From assembly GCA_016780775.1 (NCBI GenBank), contig JADHLI010000006.1, forward strand, positions 1 through 64,000: DNA of 64,000 bases, written 5' to 3'. This document shows, piece after piece, positions 57 through 19,968 of this stretch. A program made the translations under genes and the position numbers. Positions within the stretch are counted from its first letter, which is position 1; each line of letters opens with the position of its first letter. The stretch comes from Alphaproteobacteria bacterium (lineage in GTDB: Bacteria; Pseudomonadota; Alphaproteobacteria; Puniceispirillales; Puniceispirillaceae). A model generated the notes under the pieces. That model worked only from the letters and a program-made list of their open reading frames with translations. It had not been told where the DNA came from and made no database searches.

Positions 57-1001
57 ATGCGTAAGATTCTTCTTGCATCAACAGCTCTCGTTGCAATGAC
101 TTCAGTGTCAGCAATGGCAGCAGACGTAACAATTTCAGGCTCAATCGACGCCAAATATTCAATGGTTGACGATGACGGCGAAACAGGTGACAAAGATTCA
201 TTTGCACAGACAAGTGACATCGACATCAGCTTCTCAACAACCACAGACAGCGGCCTGACAATGTCATTGGCAACTGGCTTCTCAGATGGTTCCACTGACG
301 ATTCAGTGTTTAAAGTATCTGGCGATTTCGGTACAATCATGATCGAAGACGGTGGTATAGACAAAGATGACAGCGATGCCGTTGAATCAATGGATATCGA
401 CGTTGACACCTACACAAATGACGAAGGCTATTCAACTGCAGCTGGCACTGTTAAGCCAGCATATGGTGGCGGATTCTCAGCAACTAAAGCCGACTCAATC
501 TCATACACACTTCCAGCAATAGCTGAAGGGCTTTCAATTGCAGTTGCGCTTAGCGATGGCGAAGACGATGCAAAAACAACTGCATATGGTCTGACCTACA
601 CAGGTTCAACTGGCACAGTTGGCTTCAAGCTAGCAGCAGCAGCATCTAGCGCAGACAACGGTACAGATGAAACTGACCAGACACATTACGGTCTTGAAAT
701 CACTTCAGGTGCTATCACATTGGGCTTGGCTTCAAATGGCCAGGACAAGTCAGATGACAATTTAGATTACTCATCATCTGAAATGGGCATCAAATACGCA
801 GTATCAGACGTTCTGACAATTGCTGCAATGAACCGTACAGCCGAGACAGGCACTGCGACACAAGATTACGAAATGACAGCTTATGGCGTGACTTACACAA
901 TCGCACCTGGTCTGACAACAAGCGTAACATCTTCAGATGTTGACGTTAACGCAACAAACAAAGACAGCCGCATTGTTATCGCACTGGAAGCCTCTTTCTA
1001 A
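57..1001 (+). CDS. Outer-membrane porin, general bacterial porin type
   Basis: A 314-residue protein that should form a beta-barrel channel for small solutes in the outer membrane. Residues 1-21 are a classical Sec signal peptide (basic RK, hydrophobic core, cleavage near AMA/AD). The mature part is made of short alternating strands rich in Gly, Ser, Thr and Asp and ends in a terminal Phe (EASF), the usual C-terminal signal for barrel insertion. The mature chain is strongly acidic and almost free of Arg. Codon choice is very uniform, as in highly expressed genes. GGGA at 45-48 precedes the ATG at good spacing and a strong terminator follows, so it is probably monocistronic. The closest family is the Gram-negative porin (Porin_4) group; substrate unknown. 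Confidence 0.85.
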   Translation: MRKILLASTALVAMTSVSAMAADVTISGSIDAKYSMVDDDGETGDKDSFAQTSDIDISFSTTTDSGLTMSLATGFSDGSTDDSVFKVSGDFGTIMIEDGGIDKDDSDAVESMDIDVDTYTNDEGYSTAAGTVKPAYGGGFSATKADSISYTLPAIAEGLSIAVALSDGEDDAKTTAYGLTYTGSTGTVGFKLAAAASSADNGTDETDQTHYGLEITSGAITLGLASNGQDKSDDNLDYSSSEMGIKYAVSDVLTIAAMNRTAETGTATQDYEMTAYGVTYTIAPGLTTSVTSSDVDVNATNKDSRIVIALEASF

Positions 1002-1021
1002 TTATTGAAAGATTAGCTATA

Positions 1022-1056
1022 AGAGAGAGGTCGGCTTGCCGGCCTCTCTTTTTTTA
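1022..1056 (+). terminator. Rho-independent terminator of the porin gene
   Basis: A long GC-rich stem: AGAGAGG (1024-1030) pairs with CCTCTCT (1043-1049), extended by CGG/CCG, around a CTTG tetraloop. A run of T follows (1049-1055). It lies 20 bases after the porin stop and just before the next ribosome binding site. Confidence 0.9.
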
Positions 1057-1069
1057 TGAGGATTAAATG

Positions 1070-1561
1070 ATGCGCACACTATTCGCCCTTGCTTTCATTC
1101 TCGCTTTAACAAGCTGTTCTGGTGTTGGACGAGCACCGGTGGAGGAAAAAAGTGCTGGCTCCATTTTAACAGGTAAAGATACACAAGGCATTAACCTTTT
1201 AGAGCTTGGCGAAACATCGAATAGTGAAACTGGCCTGCCCATCAATGCGCTTTTATGGCGGGCATCTCTTGATATAGCCTCCTCTATACCGCTTGATGAT
1301 ATTGATACATTTGGCGGGACAATTGTGACCGAATGGTATCAGCTGGACGAGAATAATGAGGAGCGTATTAAACTGGCTATTTTTGTACTTGACCGGGAAT
1401 TGCGCTCAGATGGTATCCGGGTTGTGGTCTATGTTCAAAAACGTGACGGCAGCGATTGGCGCGATGAAGGTACAGACAGTGAAATGGGCTTGCGCCTAGA
1501 AGAGCTTATCCTAACCAGAGCAAGAGAAATTCGCGCCGGAACGGTGAGTGAAACAAATTAA
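1070..1561 (+). CDS. DUF3576 family lipoprotein
   Basis: A small lipoprotein of about 163 residues with a lipobox LTSC near residue 16, so it should be lipidated and membrane anchored. The body (LLWRASLDIASSIPL, then a GG.I.TEWY segment and a C-terminal ARE.R helix) matches the DUF3576 family, which commonly sits just upstream of leuS in Alphaproteobacteria. Function is not established. Two ATGs are possible (1067 and 1070); the Shine-Dalgarno GAGGA (1058-1062) is 7 bases from 1070 and only 4 from 1067, so 1070 is preferred. The position ahead of leuS and lptE suggests an envelope role, which is inference. Confidence 0.7.
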   Translation: MRTLFALAFILALTSCSGVGRAPVEEKSAGSILTGKDTQGINLLELGETSNSETGLPINALLWRASLDIASSIPLDDIDTFGGTIVTEWYQLDENNEERIKLAIFVLDRELRSDGIRVVVYVQKRDGSDWRDEGTDSEMGLRLEELILTRAREIRAGTVSETN

Positions 1562-1635
1562 TGTAGGCGCAGGTTTTATCCGGCTGGCCTTGCTGTCAGT
1601 TCAAAATATCTGTTCTGCTGTCTTTTGAGTGTCCC

Positions 1636-4200
1636 ATGACAAAATTAACCCCTTCAGAGCTTGAAACCAAGTGGCAAAAAATCTGGAATGCACAAAATGC
1701 ATTTGCCAGCGAAGCTGACCCTAGCCAGCCTAAATATTATGTGTTGGAGATGTTTCCCTATCCCTCAGGGCGCATTCATATGGGACATGTACGCAATTAC
1801 GCCCTAGGCGATGTGGTTGCGCGGTTTAAGCGCGCTAAGGGGTTTAATGTTCTGCACCCGATGGGCTGGGATGCGTTTGGTCTGCCAGCTGAAAATGCAG
1901 CGATAGAGCGCGGTGTGCATCCGGGCAAATGGACAACCCAAAATATTGCCGCCATGCGGGCGCAGCTGAAAACAATGGGCCTTTCTTATGACTGGGAGCG
2001 CGAAATTGCAACCTGCACCCCAGATTATTACAAACATGAACAGAAAATGTTCCTTGATTTTCTGGATGCTGGTCTTGCCTATCGCAAAGAAAGCTGGGTG
2101 AATTGGGATCCGGTGGAAAACACTGTGCTTGCGAATGAGCAAGTAGTAGATGGGCGCGGCTGGCGGTCAGGTGCTCTTGTGGAACGCCGGAAATTATCAC
2201 AATGGTTTCTGGCTATATCAGAATTTGCTGATGATCTGTTGCAGGCTATTGATGGGCTGGAAAGATGGCCCGACAAAGTCCGTTTGATGCAAAATAACTG
2301 GATTGGCCGCTCCGAGGGCGCTGAATTACGCTTTGCCCTAACAGGGGAGGAAGACAACGAAATTGCCGTTTTTACGACCCGGCCAGATACCTTGTACGGC
2401 GCATCTTTTATTGCCTTATCAGCACAACATCCCCTAGCAGCTGAACTGGCGAAAACCCGGTCCGATATTGAAGCTTTTATCGCAGAATGCGCCCAGCTAG
2501 GCACATCTGAAGCGGTGATTGAAAAAGCAGAGAAAAAAGGGTTTGATACAGGCCTGTTTGTAAAACACCCGCTGATTGAAGGGCATAAATTGCCTGTCTA
2601 TATAGCGAATTTTGTATTGATGGATTACGGCACTGGTGCGGTTTTTGGTTGTCCAGCCCATGACCAGCGTGATCTAGATTTTGCAAATGCCTACAGCCTG
2701 CCGATTATTCCGGTAGTGCGCCCACATGATGCAGGCGATGATTTCAGCGTATCAACACAAGCCTATACTGGCCCCGGGGTGCTATTTGGCTCTGGTGAAT
2801 GGTCAGGGCTAGAAGTAGAGGCTGCAAAAAAAGCGGCTATTGATAAGATTGAAGAATTAGGAGCAGGCCAGCAGAAAATAACTTTTCGTTTGCGCGATTG
2901 GGGCGTATCGAGGCAACGCTATTGGGGCTGTCCTATCCCAATAATCCATTGCGGTTATTGCGGCGCGGTACCGGTACCAGAAAAAGACCTACCTGTTACT
3001 CTGCCAGAAGATGTGGAGTTTGATAGCCCCGGCAATCCACTGGACCGTCACCCTAGCTGGAGCCAAGTTGATTGTCCTTCTTGTGGTAGGGCTGCTAGGC
3101 GCGAGACAGATACATTTGATACATTTTTTGAGAGCTCTTGGTATTTTCTGCGCTATACAGATCCAAAAGCTGAGGAAAAGGGCTTCTCAGCTGAAGCTGC
3201 AAGCTATTGGATGCCTGTTGATCAATATATTGGCGGGGTGGAACATGCGGTTCTGCACCTGCTTTATTCAAGATTCTTTACCCGCGCTTTGTCAAAAACT
3301 GGCTATTTGCAGCTAGATGAGCCTTTCGCTGGGCTTATGACACAAGGGATGGTGTGCCATCAGAGTTTTAAAGATAGTCAAGGAAACTGGCTGTTCCCCG
3401 AAGAGGTTGAAAAACAAGATGGGGCATGGGTGCATAAAAAGACCGGTGCGGAAATTAATGCTGGCCGCGTTGAAAAAATGAGCAAATCTAAGCGAAATGT
3501 GGTTGACCCGGAGCATATTATCCAAACCTATGGAGCGGATACAGCACGTCTATTTATGCTATCGGACTCTCCGCCTGAACGCGACCTGGAATGGACAGAA
3601 TCAGGGGTAGAAGGTGCCCATCGTTTTATTCAGAAGATTTGGAAGCTAGCTTTGGCTACCACGGCTTGCCCACAAGGTTTCACACTTAACAAGGATATGG
3701 CTACTACCGAAGCAGATGAGGAGCTGGCACGCGCCCTAAATAAAGCCATAGACGACATTGCCAATGATATTGAACGTTTCGCTTTTAACCGTTGTGTTGC
3801 GCATTTGCATATTTTGGTTAGCGCCTTAGCTGACTATCAAGCATCCGCGCAGCCAAATCAGGATTGTTTTGGTTTTGCGATGGGACGGTTCGCTGTGCTT
3901 TTATCTATGTTCTCGCCGCATATTGCTGAGGAAATTTGGTTGCGATCAGGCGGAACGGGTCTGGTATCGCAAGCAAAATGGCCAGAAATTGACCCGAACT
4001 GGCTAAAAGCAGATACAGTAGAAATAGCTGTTCAAGTAAATGGCAAGCTGCGTGCGCGCCTTGAGCTGCCGTTAGATTGCCCTGCCAAAGATGCAGAAGA
4101 AAAAGCACTGGCGCTTGAGAGCTTGCAGCGATATCTTGAAGGAAAATCACCTAAACGCGTGATTGTTGTGCCTAACAGGATTATCAATGTGGTGTGTTAA
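1636..4200 (+). CDS. leuS: Leucyl-tRNA synthetase
   Basis: A cytoplasmic class I aminoacyl-tRNA synthetase charging tRNA-Leu. The 854 residues fit the family. The HIGH motif appears as HMGH near residues 48-51 after PYPSG, and KMSKS is at residues 614-618. Between them lie the CP1 editing domain ([12 protein letters not shown], about 248-260) and zinc-type CxxC pairs (HCGYCG and CPSCGR). The C-terminal domain ends in a basic strand. GAG at 1627-1629 is a weak ribosome binding site. The gene overlaps the start of lptE by 14 bases, implying translational coupling; the leuS-lptE-holA order is usual in this class. Confidence 0.97.
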
Positions 4201-4699
4201 TTATTGCAGAAATTTTGTGGCGTTCAGCCTGCTTTTAATGAGTTTGGTTGGCTTAAGCGGCTGTTCGGTTAAAACAATGGCAGATGTGGACCTTACAACT
4301 TCTGCTTATTTTCAACATATGGTACTGCCTGAGACACAAAATCGCTCGCAGCAGCTTATGAACCGGACCTTGTCTGACTATGTAGGCGTGTTTGATACGG
4401 ATGCGCATTATGCGCTTTCTTATAAATTAAGCTCAGCTAGCCGTTCTGTTTTATCTTCTGCTGGCGAAGATAGCTCTATTAACAACACCAAAATGTCTGT
4501 TAGTTACGAGCTGCGTGAACTTGCAACAGGCAATATATTAACAAGCGGTAATATTGATGCATTTGCAACTTCAGGTGCGGTTTCCTCATTCCATGGTCAG
4601 GATGTTTCAGAAGATTTTGCTGAAGAGCGTTTGATTAAGCTTCTTGGGGAACGCTTATATCAGAAATTGCAGCTTTATTTCCTTACTCTTGAGGTTTAG
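4187..4699 (+). CDS. lptE: LPS-assembly lipoprotein LptE
   Basis: Outer-membrane lipoprotein that plugs the LptD barrel during lipopolysaccharide insertion. The protein has a hydrophobic N-terminus ending in the lipobox LSGC (Cys at about residue 26), then roughly 145 residues of beta-rich sequence typical of the divergent alphaproteobacterial LptE. Its place between leuS and holA is the classic lptE locus. An in-frame start at 4163 exists, but ATG 4187 has CAGGA (4176-4180) at 6 bases and is chosen, giving 170 residues and a 14-base overlap with leuS. Identification rests on context plus lipobox more than on sequence conservation. Confidence 0.75.
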
Positions 4700-5737
4700 A
4701 TGAAAATTGCTGCTCGGGATGTTGCCGGATTGCTAAAGAACCCGGGAACGCGCTTTTCAGCCTATCTTCTTTATGGACCTGATCAGGGACTTGTGCGCGA
4801 GCGCGCAAGCCAGCTTTCCAGCCATTTTTTCGATCAACCTGACGATCCTTTTGCACAGACAAGCCTGACCGGCACACAACTCGCCGATGATAAAGCCAGA
4901 TTATCAGATGAAGCCATGGCGGTGAATATTTTTGGTGGTCTGCGTGTAGTCACTGTCAGCGGTAGCGGTAGTGAGATGACAGCAGCGGTTAAATTGGCCT
5001 TCTCCCAGCCCAATCCAGATGCGCGTATTATCATCCGAGCGAGTGATGTTAACACCCGCCATGCGCTGGTTAAATTATGTGATGAGACAGAATTTTGTGC
5101 CTCTATCGGATGTTATTCTGATGACATGCGTAATTTACAGCAAATCGCGAGGGAAATTTTTGCAAAAGACAATATCACGGCCGCACCAGATGTGATGACA
5201 GCCATAGTTGCGCGTCTTGGTTCTGACAGACAAGTTAGCTTGTCTGAGCTAAGTAAGCTGGCGCTATATGCAGGGCCGGACGGTGTGCTAGGCCTGGAAG
5301 ATGTAGCCGCGGCATTAGGAGATAGCGGGGCAGTGGCAGTTGATGAGGTTAGCATTGTGCTTTTGAGCGGTGATGTTGGCGCCTTTGAGCGGGATTACGC
5401 GCGGCTTCGCCACGAAGGTATCCAACCTATTGCGGTGCTTCGCCAACTCCTTTCCCTATTTAAAGGGATGCAGGCAGCGAGGGCACGCATGCAGACAGGC
5501 CAGCCTGCTGCCCAAGCGGTGGCGCAGCTTCGCCCACCTGTACATTTTAAAATGAAACCAATAGTTACCCGGCAGCTAGGCTTATGGCGTGAACATCAGA
5601 TAACAGACACTATTGAAAGGCTGATGCAGGCAGAAATTCAAACAAAATCAGCAGCTTCTGCAAATCCAGCAACCCTTACTGGACAGATTTTGCTAGGGAT
5701 TTGCTTACGCGCCCGGCAGCTGAATAGACAGCGCTAG
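4700..5737 (+). CDS. holA: DNA polymerase III delta subunit
   Basis: Clamp-loader delta subunit, which opens the beta clamp during replication. The 345 residues match the family length. The N-terminal half contains YLLYGPDQGLVRERA, the delta counterpart of a degenerate P-loop region; the middle has the helical AAA+ lid; the C-terminal helical collar includes FKGMQAAR and LGLWREHQI. The ATG follows the lptE stop with no gap, and GAGG (4691-4694) is well placed inside lptE. Convergent with parB, whose stop is 12 bases away. Confidence 0.93.
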   Translation: MKIAARDVAGLLKNPGTRFSAYLLYGPDQGLVRERASQLSSHFFDQPDDPFAQTSLTGTQLADDKARLSDEAMAVNIFGGLRVVTVSGSGSEMTAAVKLAFSQPNPDARIIIRASDVNTRHALVKLCDETEFCASIGCYSDDMRNLQQIAREIFAKDNITAAPDVMTAIVARLGSDRQVSLSELSKLALYAGPDGVLGLEDVAAALGDSGAVAVDEVSIVLLSGDVGAFERDYARLRHEGIQPIAVLRQLLSLFKGMQAARARMQTGQPAAQAVAQLRPPVHFKMKPIVTRQLGLWREHQITDTIERLMQAEIQTKSAASANPATLTGQILLGICLRARQLNRQR

Positions 5738-5749
5738 CACCATTTTTTT

Positions 5750-6697
5750 CTACATTAATTTCAGCTTTTTCAGCAAATCATCTAACTGCTCTAACGAGGT
5801 AAGGCTAACCGATATCCGGCCCTTCTCGCGCCCCTCATCCCAGTTGATTGAAAGAGCAAGGCCAAGCTCTGTCTGAGCGCGCAATTCTAACGCGCGGATA
5901 TCAGCTGATTTCTGAACAGGGTGGCGCGAAGACTTACCAGATTTACCAGCCTTTATAAGGGCTTCTACTGCACGAGCGCTTAAATTATCAGCGGCAATTT
6001 TTACCGCTAATTCTGCAGCCTGTGGATGACCGATAAGGGGACGTGCCTGACCCATAGTTAATTTGCCTTCTGCCAGCATCGTCTTGACAGATACAGGTAG
6101 TTGACGCAAACGCAGTAAATTAGCGATGTGGGAGCGCGATTTGCCTATAATCTGCGATAATTCATCTTGGCTGTAATTATGCGCATCAATAAGCGATTGA
6201 TATCCATCTGCCTCTTCAATAACGCTCAAATCCTGACGCTGGATATTCTCAATGAGCGATAATTCCGCAGCTTGCTGATCTGTAAAATCAGAGATAATCG
6301 CTGGAATTTCGTGCATTTTTGCCATTTGCGCCGCACGCCAGCGCCGCTCACCAGCAATTAGCTCATAACGTGATGGCTTTTGGCTGTTTTCACGCACTAA
6401 AATAGGCTGAATAAGGCCGCGTTCCTTTATCGAGGTAGCCAGCTCACGCAATGCCTCTTTATCAAACTGTCGGCGTGGTTGCCAAGGACCTGGATTAATC
6501 CATTCTATTGGTAATTGGCGCACCTGACCTTTACTAGGCCCAGCAGCGGGGGCATTTTGTGTGCTTTCAGGTACTGGTCTGCCCCCAGTATCTGAAATAT
6601 CGCCAGAGGCAGGCGCAATAGGCACTTCGCCTAATAATGAGGAGAGGCCTCGGCCAAGACGATTAGTTTCTTTTGGTTTTTTGGGCGTTTTGGTCAT
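5750..6697 (-). CDS. parB: Chromosome-partitioning protein ParB
   Basis: CTP-dependent clamp that loads on parS and spreads along DNA to build the partition complex, working with ParA. After a short basic N-terminus with RLGRGLSSLLGE, the ParB/sulfiredoxin domain has QPRRQFD and GERRWRAAQ (CTP-binding boxes). The helix-turn-helix region GKSRSHIANLLRLRQL follows, and a C-terminal dimerisation domain ends the protein. A longer reading frame reaches 6763, but ATG 6697 overlaps the parA stop as ATGA and starts the typical basic tail; this gives 315 residues. Three parS sites lie 1.4-5.2 kb away. Confidence 0.95.
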   Translation of the reverse strand: MTKTPKKPKETNRLGRGLSSLLGEVPIAPASGDISDTGGRPVPESTQNAPAAGPSKGQVRQLPIEWINPGPWQPRRQFDKEALRELATSIKERGLIQPILVRENSQKPSRYELIAGERRWRAAQMAKMHEIPAIISDFTDQQAAELSLIENIQRQDLSVIEEADGYQSLIDAHNYSQDELSQIIGKSRSHIANLLRLRQLPVSVKTMLAEGKLTMGQARPLIGHPQAAELAVKIAADNLSARAVEALIKAGKSGKSSRHPVQKSADIRALELRAQTELGLALSINWDEGREKGRISVSLTSLEQLDDLLKKLKLM

Positions 6698-7470
6698 GTG
6701 TTTTGCTTTTCCTGCTCCAGAAGTTCTGCGGCTAATGCCACATAAGCTTGTGCGCCTGCACATTTTAAATCATACATTAACACAGGTTTACCAAATGACG
6801 GTGCTTCTGATACACGCACATTCCGCGGAATAACTGTTTTATAGACTTGCGCACCAAAATGGCCACGCACATCACTTTCAACCATCTCTGACAGCTTGTT
6901 TCGGGCATCATACATTGTAAGCACAATACCTTGCATCATGAGTTGTGTATTAAAGTTTGAGCGCACCACAGAAACAGTTTTCATTAATTGCGCTAACCCC
7001 TCTAGAGCATAAAACTCGCATTGCAGCGGTACCATAAAGGCATTAGCCGCGCATAGACCATTTACCGTTAACAGGCCAAGCGAAGGTGGACAGTCAATGA
7101 TTATATAGTGAAAATACTGACGCTGCGCCTCTAGCGCATTTGAAAGGCGGAATTCCCGTGCCTTCAAATCACTTAATTCAACCTCAGCAGCCGATAAATC
7201 CATTACCGCAGGCAGAATAGACAAGCGCGGCACAAGAGTGGGTACTATTGCCTCTGCTGCGCTGCATTCACCTGTCAACACCCGATAGGCATTGGCCTGA
7301 CGCTGCCCCTCATCAATCCCAAGCCCCGTGCTGGCATTACCCTGCGGGTCAAAATCAACCAGCAGCACATCCAGACCGCATGCCGCCATAGCGGTTGCCA
7401 GATTAACAGCTGTTGTTGTTTTACCCACGCCGCCCTTCTGATTAGTAATGGCAATAATTTTGGCTTGCAT
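6694..7470 (-). CDS. parA: Chromosome-partitioning ATPase ParA (Soj family)
   Basis: DNA-bound Walker ATPase whose gradient moves ParB-parS complexes during segregation. The deviant Walker A motif KGGVGKTT is at residues 12-19, with LLVDFDPQGNAS (switch I/A' region) near 38-49 and the Walker B-like IIIDCPPSLG near 120. Length 258 residues is typical. It is upstream of parB with a 4-base overlap, so the two are one transcriptional unit, and it lies 24 bases after rsmG. Confidence 0.96.
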   Translation of the reverse strand: MQAKIIAITNQKGGVGKTTTAVNLATAMAACGLDVLLVDFDPQGNASTGLGIDEGQRQANAYRVLTGECSAAEAIVPTLVPRLSILPAVMDLSAAEVELSDLKAREFRLSNALEAQRQYFHYIIIDCPPSLGLLTVNGLCAANAFMVPLQCEFYALEGLAQLMKTVSVVRSNFNTQLMMQGIVLTMYDARNKLSEMVESDVRGHFGAQVYKTVIPRNVRVSEAPSFGKPVLMYDLKCAGAQAYVALAAELLEQEKQNT

Positions 7471-7494: not shown

Positions 7495-8133
7495 TTAATG
7501 ATTAAATGGTTTTAAATGGATGATAGACGCCTCACCATCCGTTAAGCTGGGTAAACATTCAGCCTCTAGTTTCGGACAGGAAGGCAGTGTGGTCAATTCC
7601 TCTTTTGCGTCGCGGCCTTTCAGGAACAAATATTCAAGCTTGTCATGATGCTGGGCATTACAAAGTGCCATAAGCTGATCAAGCGGTGCAAGCGCTCGGG
7701 CGGTAATAACATCTGGCTGTAAAACAGGCAGCTGCTCGATACGCGTTTCATGTAGAACCGCATCAGTCCCTGTTTCTCTTAGGGCTGTTCGCATAAATGA
7801 GACCTTGCGACTATCTGATTCGGCTAGATGCAGCTGGTGATCTGTCAATATCGCCAGAATAACCCCCGGTAGCCCTGCCCCGCTTCCCATATCTAGTATA
7901 ACAGACGGCCTTGCTGGCAAATGTAAGACAAGCTGGGCGCTATCAAGTATGTGGCGATGCCAAATTTCAGGCAATGTTTTTGAAGAGATAAGATTAATAC
8001 GTGCCTGCCACCTTGTTAGCAAATCTACATATATTTCTAATTTTTCGCGTGTTTCACGTGAAACATTGAAAAAATGAGCAATCGAATTTGCATGTGCCTC
8101 TTCTACTGTCCAATGCGTATTTCTGTGTGTCAT
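7495..8133 (-). CDS. rsmG: 16S rRNA (guanine-527-N7)-methyltransferase
   Basis: SAM-dependent methyltransferase (GidB) acting on G527 of 16S rRNA. Visible are the substrate segment RWQARINLIS, the SAM loop DMGSGAGLPGVILAI and the later TARALAPLDQL. ATG 8133 is preferred over an upstream frame to 8193, because the latter would run 50 bases into mnmG and 8133 has a GCGAG-type binding site; this gives about 212 residues. A perfect parS (8050-8065) is embedded in the coding sequence and encodes part of NVSRET, a recurrent arrangement in RsmG genes next to parAB. Confidence 0.94.
   Translation of the reverse strand: MTHRNTHWTVEEAHANSIAHFFNVSRETREKLEIYVDLLTRWQARINLISSKTLPEIWHRHILDSAQLVLHLPARPSVILDMGSGAGLPGVILAILTDHQLHLAESDSRKVSFMRTALRETGTDAVLHETRIEQLPVLQPDVITARALAPLDQLMALCNAQHHDKLEYLFLKGRDAKEELTTLPSCPKLEAECLPSLTDGEASIIHLKPFNH
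8050..8065. promoter_or_regulatory. parS: parS site 1 (perfect 16-bp palindrome) inside rsmG
   Basis: TGTTTCACGTGAAACA, identical to the widely conserved chromosomal parS consensus bound by ParB. It is a complete inverted repeat. It is read through in rsmG as V-S-R-E-T, so coding and binding functions overlap. Confidence 0.95.
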
Positions 8134-10163: not shown

Positions 10164-10179
10164 TGTTTCACGTGAAACG
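10164..10179. promoter_or_regulatory. parS: parS site 2 (15 of 16) in the mnmE-mnmG gap
   Basis: TGTTTCACGTGAAACG: the core GTTTCACGTGAAAC is a perfect inverted repeat; only the last base departs from the 16-bp consensus. It lies in the 175-bp space between mnmE and mnmG, where I see nothing else recognisable. Confidence 0.9.
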
Positions 10180-11677: not shown

Positions 11678-11743
11678 CCCATGTCTATAGATACATTTGG
11701 GAAACTCTATCTCTTTACAAATTTTTGCTACAGGAGAATGGCT

Positions 11744-12271
11744 ATGACCTATTCTAGTATTACCCATACCCCGCTTGGTTATATGCGGGCAATCACCACA
11801 GATATTGGTGTTTGCAGATTAGATTGGCAGCAAACTCCTTTTACAATACAGCCTGACCAAATAGATAATCAGCAAAATGATGTTTCACGTGAAACAATCA
11901 GCCAGTTAAATGCATACTTAGCGGGGAAACGTCCAAAATTTACTCTCCCATTAGATTTATCAAACATTGCACCCACACTTCAAAAATGGCTGCTTGTTCT
12001 GAATGACGTTCCTTATGGTGAAACCATTTCTTATGCTGACTTTGCAGACCTTTGGGGCAACCGTAAAGCTGCCCGCGCTGCGGGCGGCGCATGCCAGCGT
12101 AATCCCCTACCGATTATCGTGCCATGCCATCGTGTTTTAAAAGGTGATGGTAGTTATGATAATTATAGTGGCGGCGACAATAAAAACCCGCAACACCCTG
12201 ATAATGTATACAGAAAACAATGGCTTATAGAATTAGAGGCTCAGAACTTCCAAAACCAATTAGCCTCTTAA
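11744..12271 (+). CDS. ogt: Methylated-DNA--protein-cysteine methyltransferase
   Basis: Suicidal repair protein that removes the alkyl group from O6-alkylguanine. The active-site motif is IPIIVPCHRV (Cys at about residue 128 from this start); before it lie the DNA-binding helix YADFADLWGNRKAARAAGGAC and, after it, the YSGG loop. AGGAG (11732-11736) is 7 bases from ATG 11744 but only 1 base from ATG 11738, so 11744 is preferred (175 residues); other in-frame starts reach 11681. It is the only rightward gene in a leftward block, and it carries a perfect parS in its coding sequence. Confidence 0.9.
   Translation: MTYSSITHTPLGYMRAITTDIGVCRLDWQQTPFTIQPDQIDNQQNDVSRETISQLNAYLAGKRPKFTLPLDLSNIAPTLQKWLLVLNDVPYGETISYADFADLWGNRKAARAAGGACQRNPLPIIVPCHRVLKGDGSYDNYSGGDNKNPQHPDNVYRKQWLIELEAQNFQNQLAS
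11881..11896. promoter_or_regulatory. parS: parS site 3 (perfect 16-bp palindrome) inside ogt
   Basis: TGTTTCACGTGAAACA, a full match to the ParB consensus. It is read in ogt as D-V-S-R-E-T, the same peptide encoded by the rsmG parS, and falls in the poorly conserved N-terminal domain of the repair protein. Confidence 0.95.
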
Positions 12272-14206: not shown

Positions 14207-15223
14207 TTATGCGCGTATTAACGCCAATAATTCAGTGACGTGCTCAGGCGGCGTTTGCGGCACAATTCCGTGGCCTAAATTAAAAATATGTCGGCGGCTA
14301 GCAAAAATTTCCAATATTTCATTAACCTCACGCCGCATGACGTCCCCGCCAGATACAAGACATAATGGGTCAAGATTACCTTGCAAAACGATGTCCGAGC
14401 GTAAATTCTCTGCAGCCCAACGCCTATCTACATAATGGTCAAGCGCTAGGGCTTGGATATCAACCTCTTCGCTATATTCTTTCAGCCCTTCAGAAAGACC
14501 TTTCGGAAAAGAGATTATCGGTAAATGGATGCCAGAACTACGCAGGTCAGCGATAATTTTCTTATGCAGACTGGTTATAACACGACCACGTTGTGATGCG
14601 GGTACCGCCCCTGCCCAACTATCAAAAAGCATTAATACATTTGCGCCTGCATTCGCCTGCAAAGTTAGAAAAGAAACCACATATTCTGCTAAATGATGAA
14701 GAAGTTTTTCACTTTCTTTAGGCTTTGACCATAACCAGTCCCGGGCAAAATTAAAATCACGTGACCCTGCCCCTTCGGTAATATAGGTCATCAGAGTCCA
14801 GGGCGCGCCCGAAAACCCAATAAGAGCGGTTTGTTCTGGTAATTTTCCGCGGGTAAGCTTTATCGCATCAGCCACTGGTTTTAAAAAATTCTGAAATTCA
14901 TCAAAATCTGGCAATGATAACTCATCAACAGAATTTAGTTTAGTTAAAATTGGACCTGTTCCTGGAATAAACTTTACCTCCCTGCCAATGGCATGGGGTA
15001 CAAGCAAGATATCAGAGAAAATGATTGAAGCATCAAAATCATAACGTCTTATAGGTTGCAGAGTTACTTCACAGGCTTTTTCTGGATTTAGGCAAAAATC
15101 GATAAAGTTATTGGCCGATTTCCGCAATTCACGATATTCTGGTAAATAGCGTCCAGCTTGCCTCATTATCCATACAGGTGGTTTATCGGCTGTTTTCCCA
15201 TTTAAAAGGTCAGTGAAGATCAT
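14207..15223 (-). CDS. hemE: Uroporphyrinogen decarboxylase
   Basis: Cytosolic haem-pathway enzyme converting uroporphyrinogen III to coproporphyrinogen III. The signature PPVWIMRQAGRYLPEYR is at about residues 16-32, and a second family motif GFSGAPWTLMTY is near 138-149. Length 338 residues is normal. It is the first gene left of the putative origin and is transcribed away from it; this hemE-origin adjacency is the arrangement known in Caulobacter and Rickettsia. An AT-rich stretch (15224-15265) immediately upstream probably holds its promoter. Confidence 0.97.
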   Translation of the reverse strand: MIFTDLLNGKTADKPPVWIMRQAGRYLPEYRELRKSANNFIDFCLNPEKACEVTLQPIRRYDFDASIIFSDILLVPHAIGREVKFIPGTGPILTKLNSVDELSLPDFDEFQNFLKPVADAIKLTRGKLPEQTALIGFSGAPWTLMTYITEGAGSRDFNFARDWLWSKPKESEKLLHHLAEYVVSFLTLQANAGANVLMLFDSWAGAVPASQRGRVITSLHKKIIADLRSSGIHLPIISFPKGLSEGLKEYSEEVDIQALALDHYVDRRWAAENLRSDIVLQGNLDPLCLVSGGDVMRREVNEILEIFASRRHIFNLGHGIVPQTPPEHVTELLALIRA

Positions 15224-15686
15224 TGATATAAAACTACCTAAATAAATATATTATATAATAAGGTTGTAGGGGTTGTTGATAGGTGTGAATTCCTGTTTGC
15301 CAGCCTATCCACAATTTTTGCACCTAATTTATCCCCTAATATGCTGTTAGTGCTTACTGGATATCAGAACTTTCATCTAGTCAAAAAATAAAACTATAAC
15401 AGCTCCCTATTTAGCATTTTGTTAATCAGCTTCAACATCCAAGTAAAGTTATCCCCAATATTCACTTTTGGTAACACACTATCTTCAACAAGCCATCTAT
15501 TTGCCCCTAAGATGTGGATAAATTGGACAAAAAATACAAACACTAAAACTTATCCCCATTCTTGGTCTAATTTTAAATAACCGAGGATAAGCTGTAGATA
15601 ATATGATATTTATTTATATCTTCAGAACAAAGCCATTGCGGCATTATGATGACTTCTCAAGTTAGAATTGTTATCACATAGAAATT
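15224..15686. other. oriC: Putative chromosomal replication origin (oriC) between hemE and ppsR
   Basis: A 463-bp noncoding, AT-rich gap with a cluster of DnaA-box-like nonamers. Against TTATCCACA: a perfect box on the minus strand at 15513-15521; one-mismatch boxes at 15305-15313, 15449-15457, 15550-15558 and 15593-15601 (minus); and weaker ones at 15329-15337, 15582-15590 (minus) and 15671-15679. Pure A/T runs lie at the hemE end (15236-15263) and around 15600-15620, candidates for strand opening. The neighbours (hemE on one side, ppsR-maf-coaE-dnaQ on the other, parAB and parS within 10 kb) match the Caulobacter origin. Genes on both sides mostly point outward. Confidence 0.82.
15513..15521 (-). 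promoter_or_regulatory. Perfect DnaA box
   Basis: TGTGGATAA on the plus strand is TTATCCACA on the minus strand, the exact DnaA consensus nonamer, flanked within 65 bases on each side by two TTATCCCCA boxes. Confidence 0.8.
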
Positions 15687-16529
15687 ATGGAAACGACATT
15701 GCATATTCACCTTGTCTCTGATTCAACTGGCGAGACGGTTCATCAGGTCACCAGAGCAGCGCTTGCCCAGTTCTCTAATGTTAAGGCATCAGAACATATT
15801 TGGACGCTGGTGCGCACTTCAGCCCATCTCCAAACCATTCGATCTGGTCTAGAGCGTAATCCGGGGATCATCTTATATTCAATTGTTGACCCCAAAATTC
15901 GTGATGAACTTGAAGCTTTATGTGCAGATTTAAATATTCCTAACCTATCTATATTAGATCCGCTTGTTGACCTGTTTTCTACCGTTTTGGGTTATAAACA
16001 AAATAGCCGTCCCGGCGGCCAACACAAGCTAGACCGTGCTTATTTCGAACGTATGGCAGCGGTTGAATTTGCGGTTAATCATGATGATGGCCTGAATATG
16101 GAAAGTTTGCAAAATGCGCAGATTTTACTCGTTGGCGTCTCCCGCACCTCTAAAACACCTACCTCTATGTATCTTGCTAACAGGGGCTATTGGGTAGCAA
16201 ATTATGCGCTGGTTCCAAATGTTCCTTTTCCGTTAAAAACGATAGAGAAATTTCCAAAATTATTTATTGTTGGTTTAACAACAGATCCTAAACGTTTGGC
16301 GCATGTTCGCCGCAACCGGCTTGCCCATCTAACCGATAAATCAAATCAGAATTATGCAGATATGGAAAAAATTAGCGAAGAGCTCTCTGAGGCGCGCCGG
16401 CTATTTTCCAAGCAAGGATGGCCAGTATTGGATGTTTCGCGCCGTTCTGTTGAAGAGACAGCTGCCGCTATTTTGCATTTATATATGAATCATAAAGAAG
16501 CGCAGGCAGAAAACAACGGGGCTAGCTGA
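15687..16529 (+). CDS. ppsR: PEP synthase / pyruvate phosphate dikinase regulatory protein (DUF299)
   Basis: Bifunctional ADP-dependent kinase and phosphate-dependent phosphorylase that switches PEP synthase or pyruvate phosphate dikinase off and on. The N-terminus IHLVSDSTGETVHQVTRAAL and the P-loop GVSRTSKTPTSMYLANRG (about 150-167) are the family signatures. It has 280 residues. It is the first rightward gene after the putative origin and overlaps maf by one base. Which of the two target enzymes it controls cannot be told from the window, as neither is present. Confidence 0.92.
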   Translation: METTLHIHLVSDSTGETVHQVTRAALAQFSNVKASEHIWTLVRTSAHLQTIRSGLERNPGIILYSIVDPKIRDELEALCADLNIPNLSILDPLVDLFSTVLGYKQNSRPGGQHKLDRAYFERMAAVEFAVNHDDGLNMESLQNAQILLVGVSRTSKTPTSMYLANRGYWVANYALVPNVPFPLKTIEKFPKLFIVGLTTDPKRLAHVRRNRLAHLTDKSNQNYADMEKISEELSEARRLFSKQGWPVLDVSRRSVEETAAAILHLYMNHKEAQAENNGAS

Positions 16530-19287: not shown

Positions 19288-19803
19288 TTAATCCTTTTTC
19301 TCAAAATCCCCTTCAATGATGTCTCCATCTAAATTTTTTGGCTGGCTAGAGGCGCGCCTATCATTTGAATAAGTTGTGCTATCACGTCTATCAGAAGCGG
19401 GGCTAAAACCAGAAGAAAAACGTTGCCCAAACATATTTTGAACGTTCACCAGCTGAAATCTGGAGAGAAGGGCGCTACCGATCAAAAAACGCAGACCAGG
19501 AATAAAGCATAAAATGCCCATAGCATCGGTAACATAACCTGGTAATAACATCAGCAAAGCACCAAGAAGCAAGGATAATCCGCTAGCGAGTGAAGCTGTT
19601 TCCACCTCACCTCTGGTCAGATTTGCCTGCCATCTTGCTAAAACAGCGCGCCCTTGTGAGCGAAGCAGCCACATACCAATGAAAGCAGTGACAAAAATGC
19701 CTAAAAAGCTGGCTAAACCGCCAATTTCGCTGCCAATAAATATCAAGGCTTCAAATTCAACCCAACCATAGAGGCCGAATAAAATTAGGATATAAAACAG
19801 CAT
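19288..19803 (-). CDS. fxsA: FxsA-family inner-membrane protein
   Basis: Small membrane protein of the FxsA/UPF0716 family, whose E. coli member relieves phage T7 exclusion when overproduced; the normal role is unclear. The sequence shows FYILILFGLYGWVEFEALIFIG, a second hydrophobic pair, and LLMLLPGYVTDAMGILCFIPGLR, the family hallmark. The C-terminus is polar. ATG 19803 has GGAG 7 bases upstream and is chosen over a longer frame to 19842; length 171. Divergent from the Tim44-like gene, as in other Alphaproteobacteria. Confidence 0.87.
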   Translation of the reverse strand: MLFYILILFGLYGWVEFEALIFIGSEIGGLASFLGIFVTAFIGMWLLRSQGRAVLARWQANLTRGEVETASLASGLSLLLGALLMLLPGYVTDAMGILCFIPGLRFLIGSALLSRFQLVNVQNMFGQRFSSGFSPASDRRDSTTYSNDRRASSQPKNLDGDIIEGDFEKKD

Positions 19804-19968
19804 TTTTTGTCTCCAGCTTGTATCTGAAAATGGGCAACCCATATGTTATCATATAGGAAGGCATTCTTTTAGATGCAAATCTTGATGCTTTTATGGCATA
19901 GTTCTCTTAAAGTTTAGCCCTTGTTAAGTTTAACCTCTGCCCTGAAACCTTTTTATAGACGCTTTATT

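Follow-up and report, generated by a model that had tools for sequence, protein, structure and literature searches.

A probable chromosomal replication origin between hemE and ppsR in a SAR116-type alphaproteobacterium

Background

Among alphaproteobacterial origins of the hemE type, Cori of Caulobacter crescentus and the origin of Rickettsia prowazekii sit between hemE and a gene of COG1806 and contain DnaA boxes (PMC1914354). Table 1 of that paper gives their sizes as 404 and 384 bp, respectively. Cori is reported to carry five sites for CtrA and one for IHF, and CtrA sites are absent in some of the other origins predicted there.

DnaA-trios in Bacillus subtilis are 3'-GAT-5' repeats adjoining a box (PMC8287927), and the BUS rule calls for at least three consecutive 3'-NAN-5' trios no more than 16 bp from a DnaA box (PMC8287927, PMC10721633). 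Asn187 of B. subtilis DnaA binds the middle adenine of the trio while Arg202 and Glu228 bind the G, and changing the middle A to T lowers strand separation and initiation (PMC10721633). BUS patterns were predicted in 1755 of 2070 origins, with proteobacterial classes marked in a figure legend, and alphaproteobacterial origins are probably among those in the supplement (PMC8287927). In Escherichia coli oriC, the single-strand motifs of the DUE are TTGT and TTATT (PMC10797057).

The SAR116 clade has been called one of the most abundant groups of heterotrophs at the ocean surface (PMC8547437), and the gap described here gives a sequence-level oriC candidate for it. Judged by title, no paper among the matches listed for a SAR116 or Puniceispirillum replication origin was on an origin. 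Here we analyse the window, that is, bases 1 to 64000 of contig C9 (115,986 bp) in a draft genome of 2.21 Mb and 44 contigs, which we take to be that of a SAR116-type organism (Puniceispirillales), and compare its hemE-ppsR gap with homologous loci of relatives.

Results and discussion

The hemE-ppsR gap and its neighbours

The gap measures 463 bp and has a GC fraction of 0.317, against 0.41 to 0.51 in the remaining 63 one-kb bins of the window (bin 15001-16000 excepted). It shares its boundary genes (hemE and CC0001-COG1806 in Caulobacter crescentus), AT enrichment and DnaA boxes with its closest known counterparts, Cori and the Rickettsia prowazekii origin, and is similar to them in size. 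The gap, its boundary genes and the nearby segregation genes and sites are as follows.

15224-15686, no strand: probable oriC, the intergenic gap between hemE and ppsR (size, GC, boxes, homologous gaps in relatives)
14207-15223, minus strand: hemE, left boundary gene (TIGR01464, 376.5 bits, above cut-off)
15687-16529, plus strand: ppsR-type kinase/pyrophosphorylase gene, right boundary gene (PF03618, 301.4 bits; NF003742 above cut-off)
5750-6763, minus strand: parB (TIGR00180, 191.5 bits, above cut-off)
6694-7470, minus strand: ParA-type ATPase gene (PF13614, 206.8 bits; the NF041546 ParA model under cut-off)
8050-8065, no strand: parS-like site, perfect (16-mer consensus scan)
10164-10179, no strand: parS-like site, one mismatch (same scan)
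11881-11896, no strand: parS-like site, perfect (same scan)

Curated models name the genes on the right side as a PPDK/PEPS regulator of the ppsR type (PF03618), a Maf-like gene, coaE, dnaQ and secB, and those on the hemE side as hemE, UPF0093, rho, mnmE, mnmG, rsmG, the ParA-type ATPase and parB. The gene order hemE | ppsR-maf-coaE-dnaQ-secB given in the preliminary description is thereby borne out, with the Maf-like and ParA-type genes identified by weaker models. The Maf-like gene scores under the equivalog cut-off, and the right boundary gene is below the cut-off of the stricter NF049928 PpsR model (155.8 vs 350). The same description had placed parAB and three parS sites near the gap, and these were found as listed, using a 16-mer that we take to be the parS consensus. 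The two perfect parS-like sites fall within reading frames, those of rsmG (GidB family) and an O6-methylguanine methyltransferase gene. As for the claim that genes mostly point away from the gap, it stands for about 9 kb leftward and several kb rightward; it does not extend to exceptions that include 11681-12271 (plus strand), secB and 19288-19842 (minus strand), or to the genes at 57-5737, which read toward the gap.

DnaA boxes

Scanning the gap with TTATCCACA returned one perfect, four one-mismatch and three two-mismatch sites. These are listed below from hemE rightward, together with one degenerate site recognised from the family alignment.

15274-15282, minus strand: weak DnaA box CTATCAACA, two mismatches, overlapping the T[A/T]G tract described below
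15284-15292, minus strand: degenerate box-like site, three mismatches by eye, positional counterpart of the relatives' TGTGGATAA in the family alignment
15305-15313, plus strand: DnaA box CTATCCACA, one mismatch
15329-15337, plus strand: weak DnaA box TTATCCCCT, two mismatches
15449-15457, plus strand: DnaA box TTATCCCCA, one mismatch, kept in the nearest relative
15513-15521, minus strand: perfect DnaA box TTATCCACA, kept in the nearest relative
15550-15558, plus strand: DnaA box TTATCCCCA, one mismatch, with eight NAN triplets directly before it
15582-15590, minus strand: weak DnaA box TTATCCTCG, two mismatches
15593-15601, minus strand: DnaA box TTATCTACA, one mismatch

The scan thus agrees with the earlier count of one perfect, at least four one-mismatch and some weaker nonamers on both strands of an AT-rich gap. 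Sites with at most one mismatch number five where 0.205 are expected, a count reached by none of 1000 dinucleotide shuffles, and the best other 450-bp stretches of the 116-kb contig clear of this cluster hold at most two. Across the 28 family gaps TTATCCCCA was counted 15 times, with 0.155 expected. The consensus of the Caulobacter W-box is TCCCCA, and these weak boxes resemble TTATCCCCA. Weak W-boxes are described for Caulobacter in PMC10797057.

Conservation in relatives

A ppsR protein was present in 46 of the 61 genomes searched in the order. Within the family, 34 ppsR loci were collected, the window's included; hemE was not found on four of them (L011, L019, L031 and L033), and in all 30 loci having both genes hemE and ppsR diverge around a gap of 359 to 556 bp. 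Together the 30 gaps contain 90 sites with at most one mismatch, where 5.85 are expected, and the 27 distinct SAR116-family gaps left after removal of the window's own and the duplicates L037 and L040 hold 79 (about 5 expected). The gaps of L013 and L028 have one box each, which is not above shuffles (15 and 20 of 100). For the other three families of the order (f2 to f4), 22 sequences were scanned over the 300 bp nearest to hemE on its upstream side and gave 64 sites vs 3.1 expected, two of the 24 loci (L119 and L124) having been left out with less than 130 bp upstream.

Family f4 gave no ppsR match in any of its ten genomes. DnaA boxes nevertheless lie within 700 bp upstream of hemE in nine of its ten loci (none in L130), and a T[A/T]G tract scoring at least four of five triplets is found upstream of hemE in all ten. 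The family seems to have lost ppsR (loci L127 to L132, L134, L136, L137 and L139).

GC skew

On the window's 116-kb contig, cumulative skew is lowest at 16347, which is 0.66 kb to the right of the gap. For relatives, skew was sampled or computed locally, and a minimum on or beside the gap was found in two of four complete genomes. In G009 the local minimum (1808564) lies 66 bp inside the gap at 1808499-1808893, and in G015 it lies at 1491844, 42 bp beyond the gap at 1491375-1491802; contiguous data around the two loci covered 260 and 210 kb, respectively. Twenty 20-kb stretches sampled from each of two single-contig relatives show the sign of the skew switching across the hemE-ppsR locus. In G043 a strong minimum lies 7 kb off the gap. 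G037 shows an almost level skew over some 70 kb, and its local minimum is 55 kb off. One stretch sampled from G009 (L043) has three boxes in 450 bp, equal to the count in the hemE gap of that genome.

Duplex stability and the site of melting

A nearest-neighbour stability scan yielded two candidate melting stretches, which are given here with the periodic tract that adjoins the first of them.

15219-15269, no strand: predicted duplex-unwinding element, least stable 50-step stretch of the window
15518-15618, no strand: second candidate melting stretch, least stable at 100 steps
15264-15278, plus strand: three-base-periodic DnaA-trio-like tract TTG-TAG-GGG-TTG-TTG, the best five-triplet window of the first 110 bp, with counterparts in relatives

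The least stable 30-step stretch is 15227-15257, and 15568-15618, within the second candidate, ranks second at 50 steps. Either candidate may be the melting site. Opening on the hemE side is favoured from the sequence, since there the 28-member family alignment shows a conserved consensus order of AT-rich DNA, AAGG, TTGTTGTTTTAGTAG, TGTGGATAA and then TTATCCACA. Read from hemE rightward, the window itself has the least stable 50-step stretch, the tract, the degenerate minus-strand box and the DnaA boxes. Eight A-centred triplets directly 5' of the box at 15550 (15526-15558) form a second possible trio array; judged by eye from the alignment, this run is not conserved in the nearest relative.

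A T[A/T]G tract beside the AT-rich stretch

The tract and its counterparts are strand-specific and have a three-base period. The best-of-five-triplets score was 3.82 on the plus strand of the 28 f1 sequences, 2.07 on the minus strand and 2.35 in shuffles, and the corresponding values for the 22 sequences of f2 to f4 were 4.09, 1.82 and 2.23. Over all 50 sequences, pairs of G at lag 3 numbered 256 vs 125.6 (z 13.2), and lag 6 was also raised (z 9.2). A weaker excess upstream of hemE was seen class-wide (plus 3.29, minus 2.67, shuffle 2.57; 24 loci) in a set drawn from the best 29 of 63 genomes with hemE, our own genome apart; the five of these 29 without a nearby ppsR were scored apart. Tracts scoring at least four of five were found in 20 of 28 f1 sequences and 19 of 22 in f2 to f4. 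In the three f3 sequences the best tract lies at the extreme hemE edge and is doubtful.

The middle base of the NNG triplets in these high-scoring tracts was T 44, A 40 and G 3 in f1, and T 50, A 31, G 4 and C 1 in f2 to f4; since the score demands a middle A or T, only the ratio of A to T is informative here, not the scarcity of C and G. The T[A/T]G pattern itself was picked post hoc after inspection of f1, where it gave 56 vs 34.2; out of sample, f2 to f4 gave 51 vs 26.2, and the maximum of 300 shuffle sets was 33. Strict TAG runs also exceed shuffles in f1 (37 vs 27.2) and f3/f4 (22 vs 11.1), and in f2 they are no longer than shuffles (8 vs 9.0). A-centred patterns are raised as well ([TA]A[GA] in f1, 67 vs 53.8;.A. 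runs in f2 to f4, 124 vs 99.5), which speaks against a claim that the middle A is ignored.

The layout is like the BUS of B. subtilis in that an AT-rich stretch, a three-base repeat and boxes follow in order, with G every third base on one strand and the same polarity toward the boxes. It differs in the middle base, which is A in the B. subtilis trios and T about as often as A here. The conserved tract of the window has a longest NAN run of one, short of the three consecutive NAN of the published rule, and 37 of the 50 tracts, extended by 9 nt, lack three consecutive NAN in all frames. The next box with at most two mismatches is 26 bp from the tract in the window and within 16 bp in 31 of the 50 sequences. 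NAN runs that fit the rule do occur outside the tract, such as the eight before 15550, at chance level. Of the 50 sequences, 43 have three NAN somewhere at most 16 bp from a box, and shuffled upstream DNA gives 43.7, so the published rule does not discriminate here.

The locus resembles E. coli oriC in that a strand rich in TTG adjoins the AT-rich part and lies 5' of the boxes. It differs in that the E. coli motifs overlap the 13-mers and work with IHF, whereas here the tract is phased and the gap has no IHF consensus.

Trio-reading residues of DnaA

DnaA of the window's genome was aligned to the PDB entry 8btg, which we take to be B. subtilis DnaA, as the residue numbering fits. With positions counted by hand, Tyr stands at Asn187, Lys at Arg202 and Glu at Glu228. 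The motif could be read in 35 of 37 alphaproteobacterial DnaA proteins (L217 and L219 were left out; L086, with His, and L216, with Tyr, were read by eye), and the residue equivalent to Asn187 is Tyr in 31, His in two, Phe in one and Asn in one. The same alignments give Asn and Gln for the solved structures 2z4r and 1l8q, presumably the DnaA proteins of Thermotoga and Aquifex. The sole DnaA keeping Asn (L082, genome G006) belongs with a tract (L022) that looks like the others, which argues against a tight link between residue and tract. Tyr at the position of Asn187 and tracts with a middle T co-occur at the level of the class.

One tentative and on balance unlikely reading is that alphaproteobacterial DnaA recognises a variant form of the trio, T-[A/T]-G, when it opens the origin, with the third-base G read as in B. 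subtilis and a middle base that can be other than adenine. Asn187 to Tyr would be the protein change matching such a trio, and the residues that contact the G are chemically conserved in DnaA of the window's genome (Arg202 replaced by Lys, Glu228 unchanged). If this were true, the TAG trio of B. subtilis and the TTGT motif of E. coli would be two ends of one recognition pattern. The tract also lends itself to testing how DnaA reads bases, T being routine at the position where an A-to-T change weakens strand separation and initiation in B. subtilis (PMC10721633). A partial look at the literature on DnaA-trios with alphaproteobacteria or the Caulobacter origin found no statement on a T-tolerant trio.

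Function of the gap and alternative explanations

We conclude that the gap is almost certainly the chromosomal oriC of a SAR116-type alphaproteobacterium and occupies the position that Cori has in Caulobacter. The computed support consists of the box cluster, the boundary genes, their conservation, the low duplex stability and the skew in relatives. What points to oriC, and upholds the probable origin of the preliminary description, is the combination of boundary genes, boxes clustered in relatives, skew minima in two of four complete genomes, the least stable 50 bp of the window, and the lack of a rival cluster at dnaA.

In many bacteria oriC lies beside dnaA, and although the window has no dnaA, as had been stated, the full-length match of the genome lies on the same contig at C9:91341, 75 kb rightward. 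The origin could then be sought there and the hemE-ppsR cluster be only a DnaA-titration or DnaA-regulated region. This is very unlikely: the 4.4-kb dnaA locus (L001) has one site with at most one mismatch, TTATCCAAA, and no box cluster, and in G015 (+803 vs -1585) as well as G009 (-1627 vs -4730) the cumulative skew reaches a much higher value at dnaA than at its minimum. An origin of plasmid or chromid type, in place of that of the main chromosome, is suggested by the parAB genes close to the gap, since parAB are nearby on many secondary replicons. We regard this as next to impossible. The gap has no match among 72,556 plasmid records at E 1e-5, its neighbours include rho, mnmE, mnmG, coaE, dnaQ and secB with dnaA on the same contig, and relatives whose genomes are single contigs of 2.59 and 2.75 Mb carry homologous gaps, which contradicts such a reading.

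The gap might instead be only the divergent promoter region of hemE and ppsR, with the T[A/T]G tract as part of the hemE promoter or leader. A sigma-70-like minus-strand site toward hemE (15279-15250, matching 10 of 12) does overlap the tract and the AT-rich stretch; promoter-like sites in the gap number four vs 2.8 +/- 1.6 in shuffles, which is not above expectation. A promoter function alone leaves the box excess and the skew switch unexplained and does not predict the three-base period (G-G lag 3, z 13.2), and family f4 keeps the tract in ten of ten loci and the boxes in nine (not L130) with no ppsR match in its ten genomes. It is therefore extremely unlikely as the whole explanation, and promoter and origin functions may share the DNA of the gap. 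Given the overlap at 15250-15279, transcription of hemE and opening of the origin could interfere.

For the preferred reading as oriC, we infer DnaA binding, the place and order of DNA opening, and segregation from the arrangement of sites. DnaA would load on the boxes between 15305 and 15601, spread toward hemE and capture the T[A/T]G tract (15264-15278) in single-stranded form. Melting of the AT-rich DNA at 15219-15269 would let helicase load and two forks leave. ParB on the parS-like sites 3 to 7 kb leftward could subsequently help to segregate the new origins. Such an origin would be an ordinary alphaproteobacterial one of the Caulobacter kind, new only as an instance, and the tract may be a slightly unusual DNA-opening element.

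Regulatory sites and cell-cycle regulators

No CtrA site (TTAA-N7-TTAA), either strict or with one mismatch at the A's, was found in the window's gap, and the IHF consensus of the Cori paper was likewise absent, in contrast to what is published for Cori. CtrA control of the origin through TTAA-N7-TTAA is therefore not supported, though a mild excess across the 28 family gaps (31 vs 20.7 expected, with two of 100 shuffle sets reaching 31) leaves room for it. Matches to TTWW-N7-TTWW were found five times on the minus strand and not on the plus strand (1.25 expected per strand); we disregard them, as DNA this rich in AT makes so permissive a pattern easy to match. The IHF consensus occurs nine times in the 28 family gaps vs 10.4 expected.

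GANTC and GATC are both absent from the gap. GANTC is rarer across the 28 gaps (4 vs 25.7 in shuffles, sd 5.3) and is also depleted over the window's contig, with 115 sites where base composition predicts 449. None of the 61 genomes searched in the order matched the ChpT family PF10090, and the Caulobacter control was positive. The genome does encode GcrA (PF07750), a CcrM-like methylase (NF050803, 606 bits, cut-off 830) and a CtrA-like regulator (L113:1462-2163), which scores 243.6 bits with the Rhodobacterales model NF045991, under its cut-off of 350.
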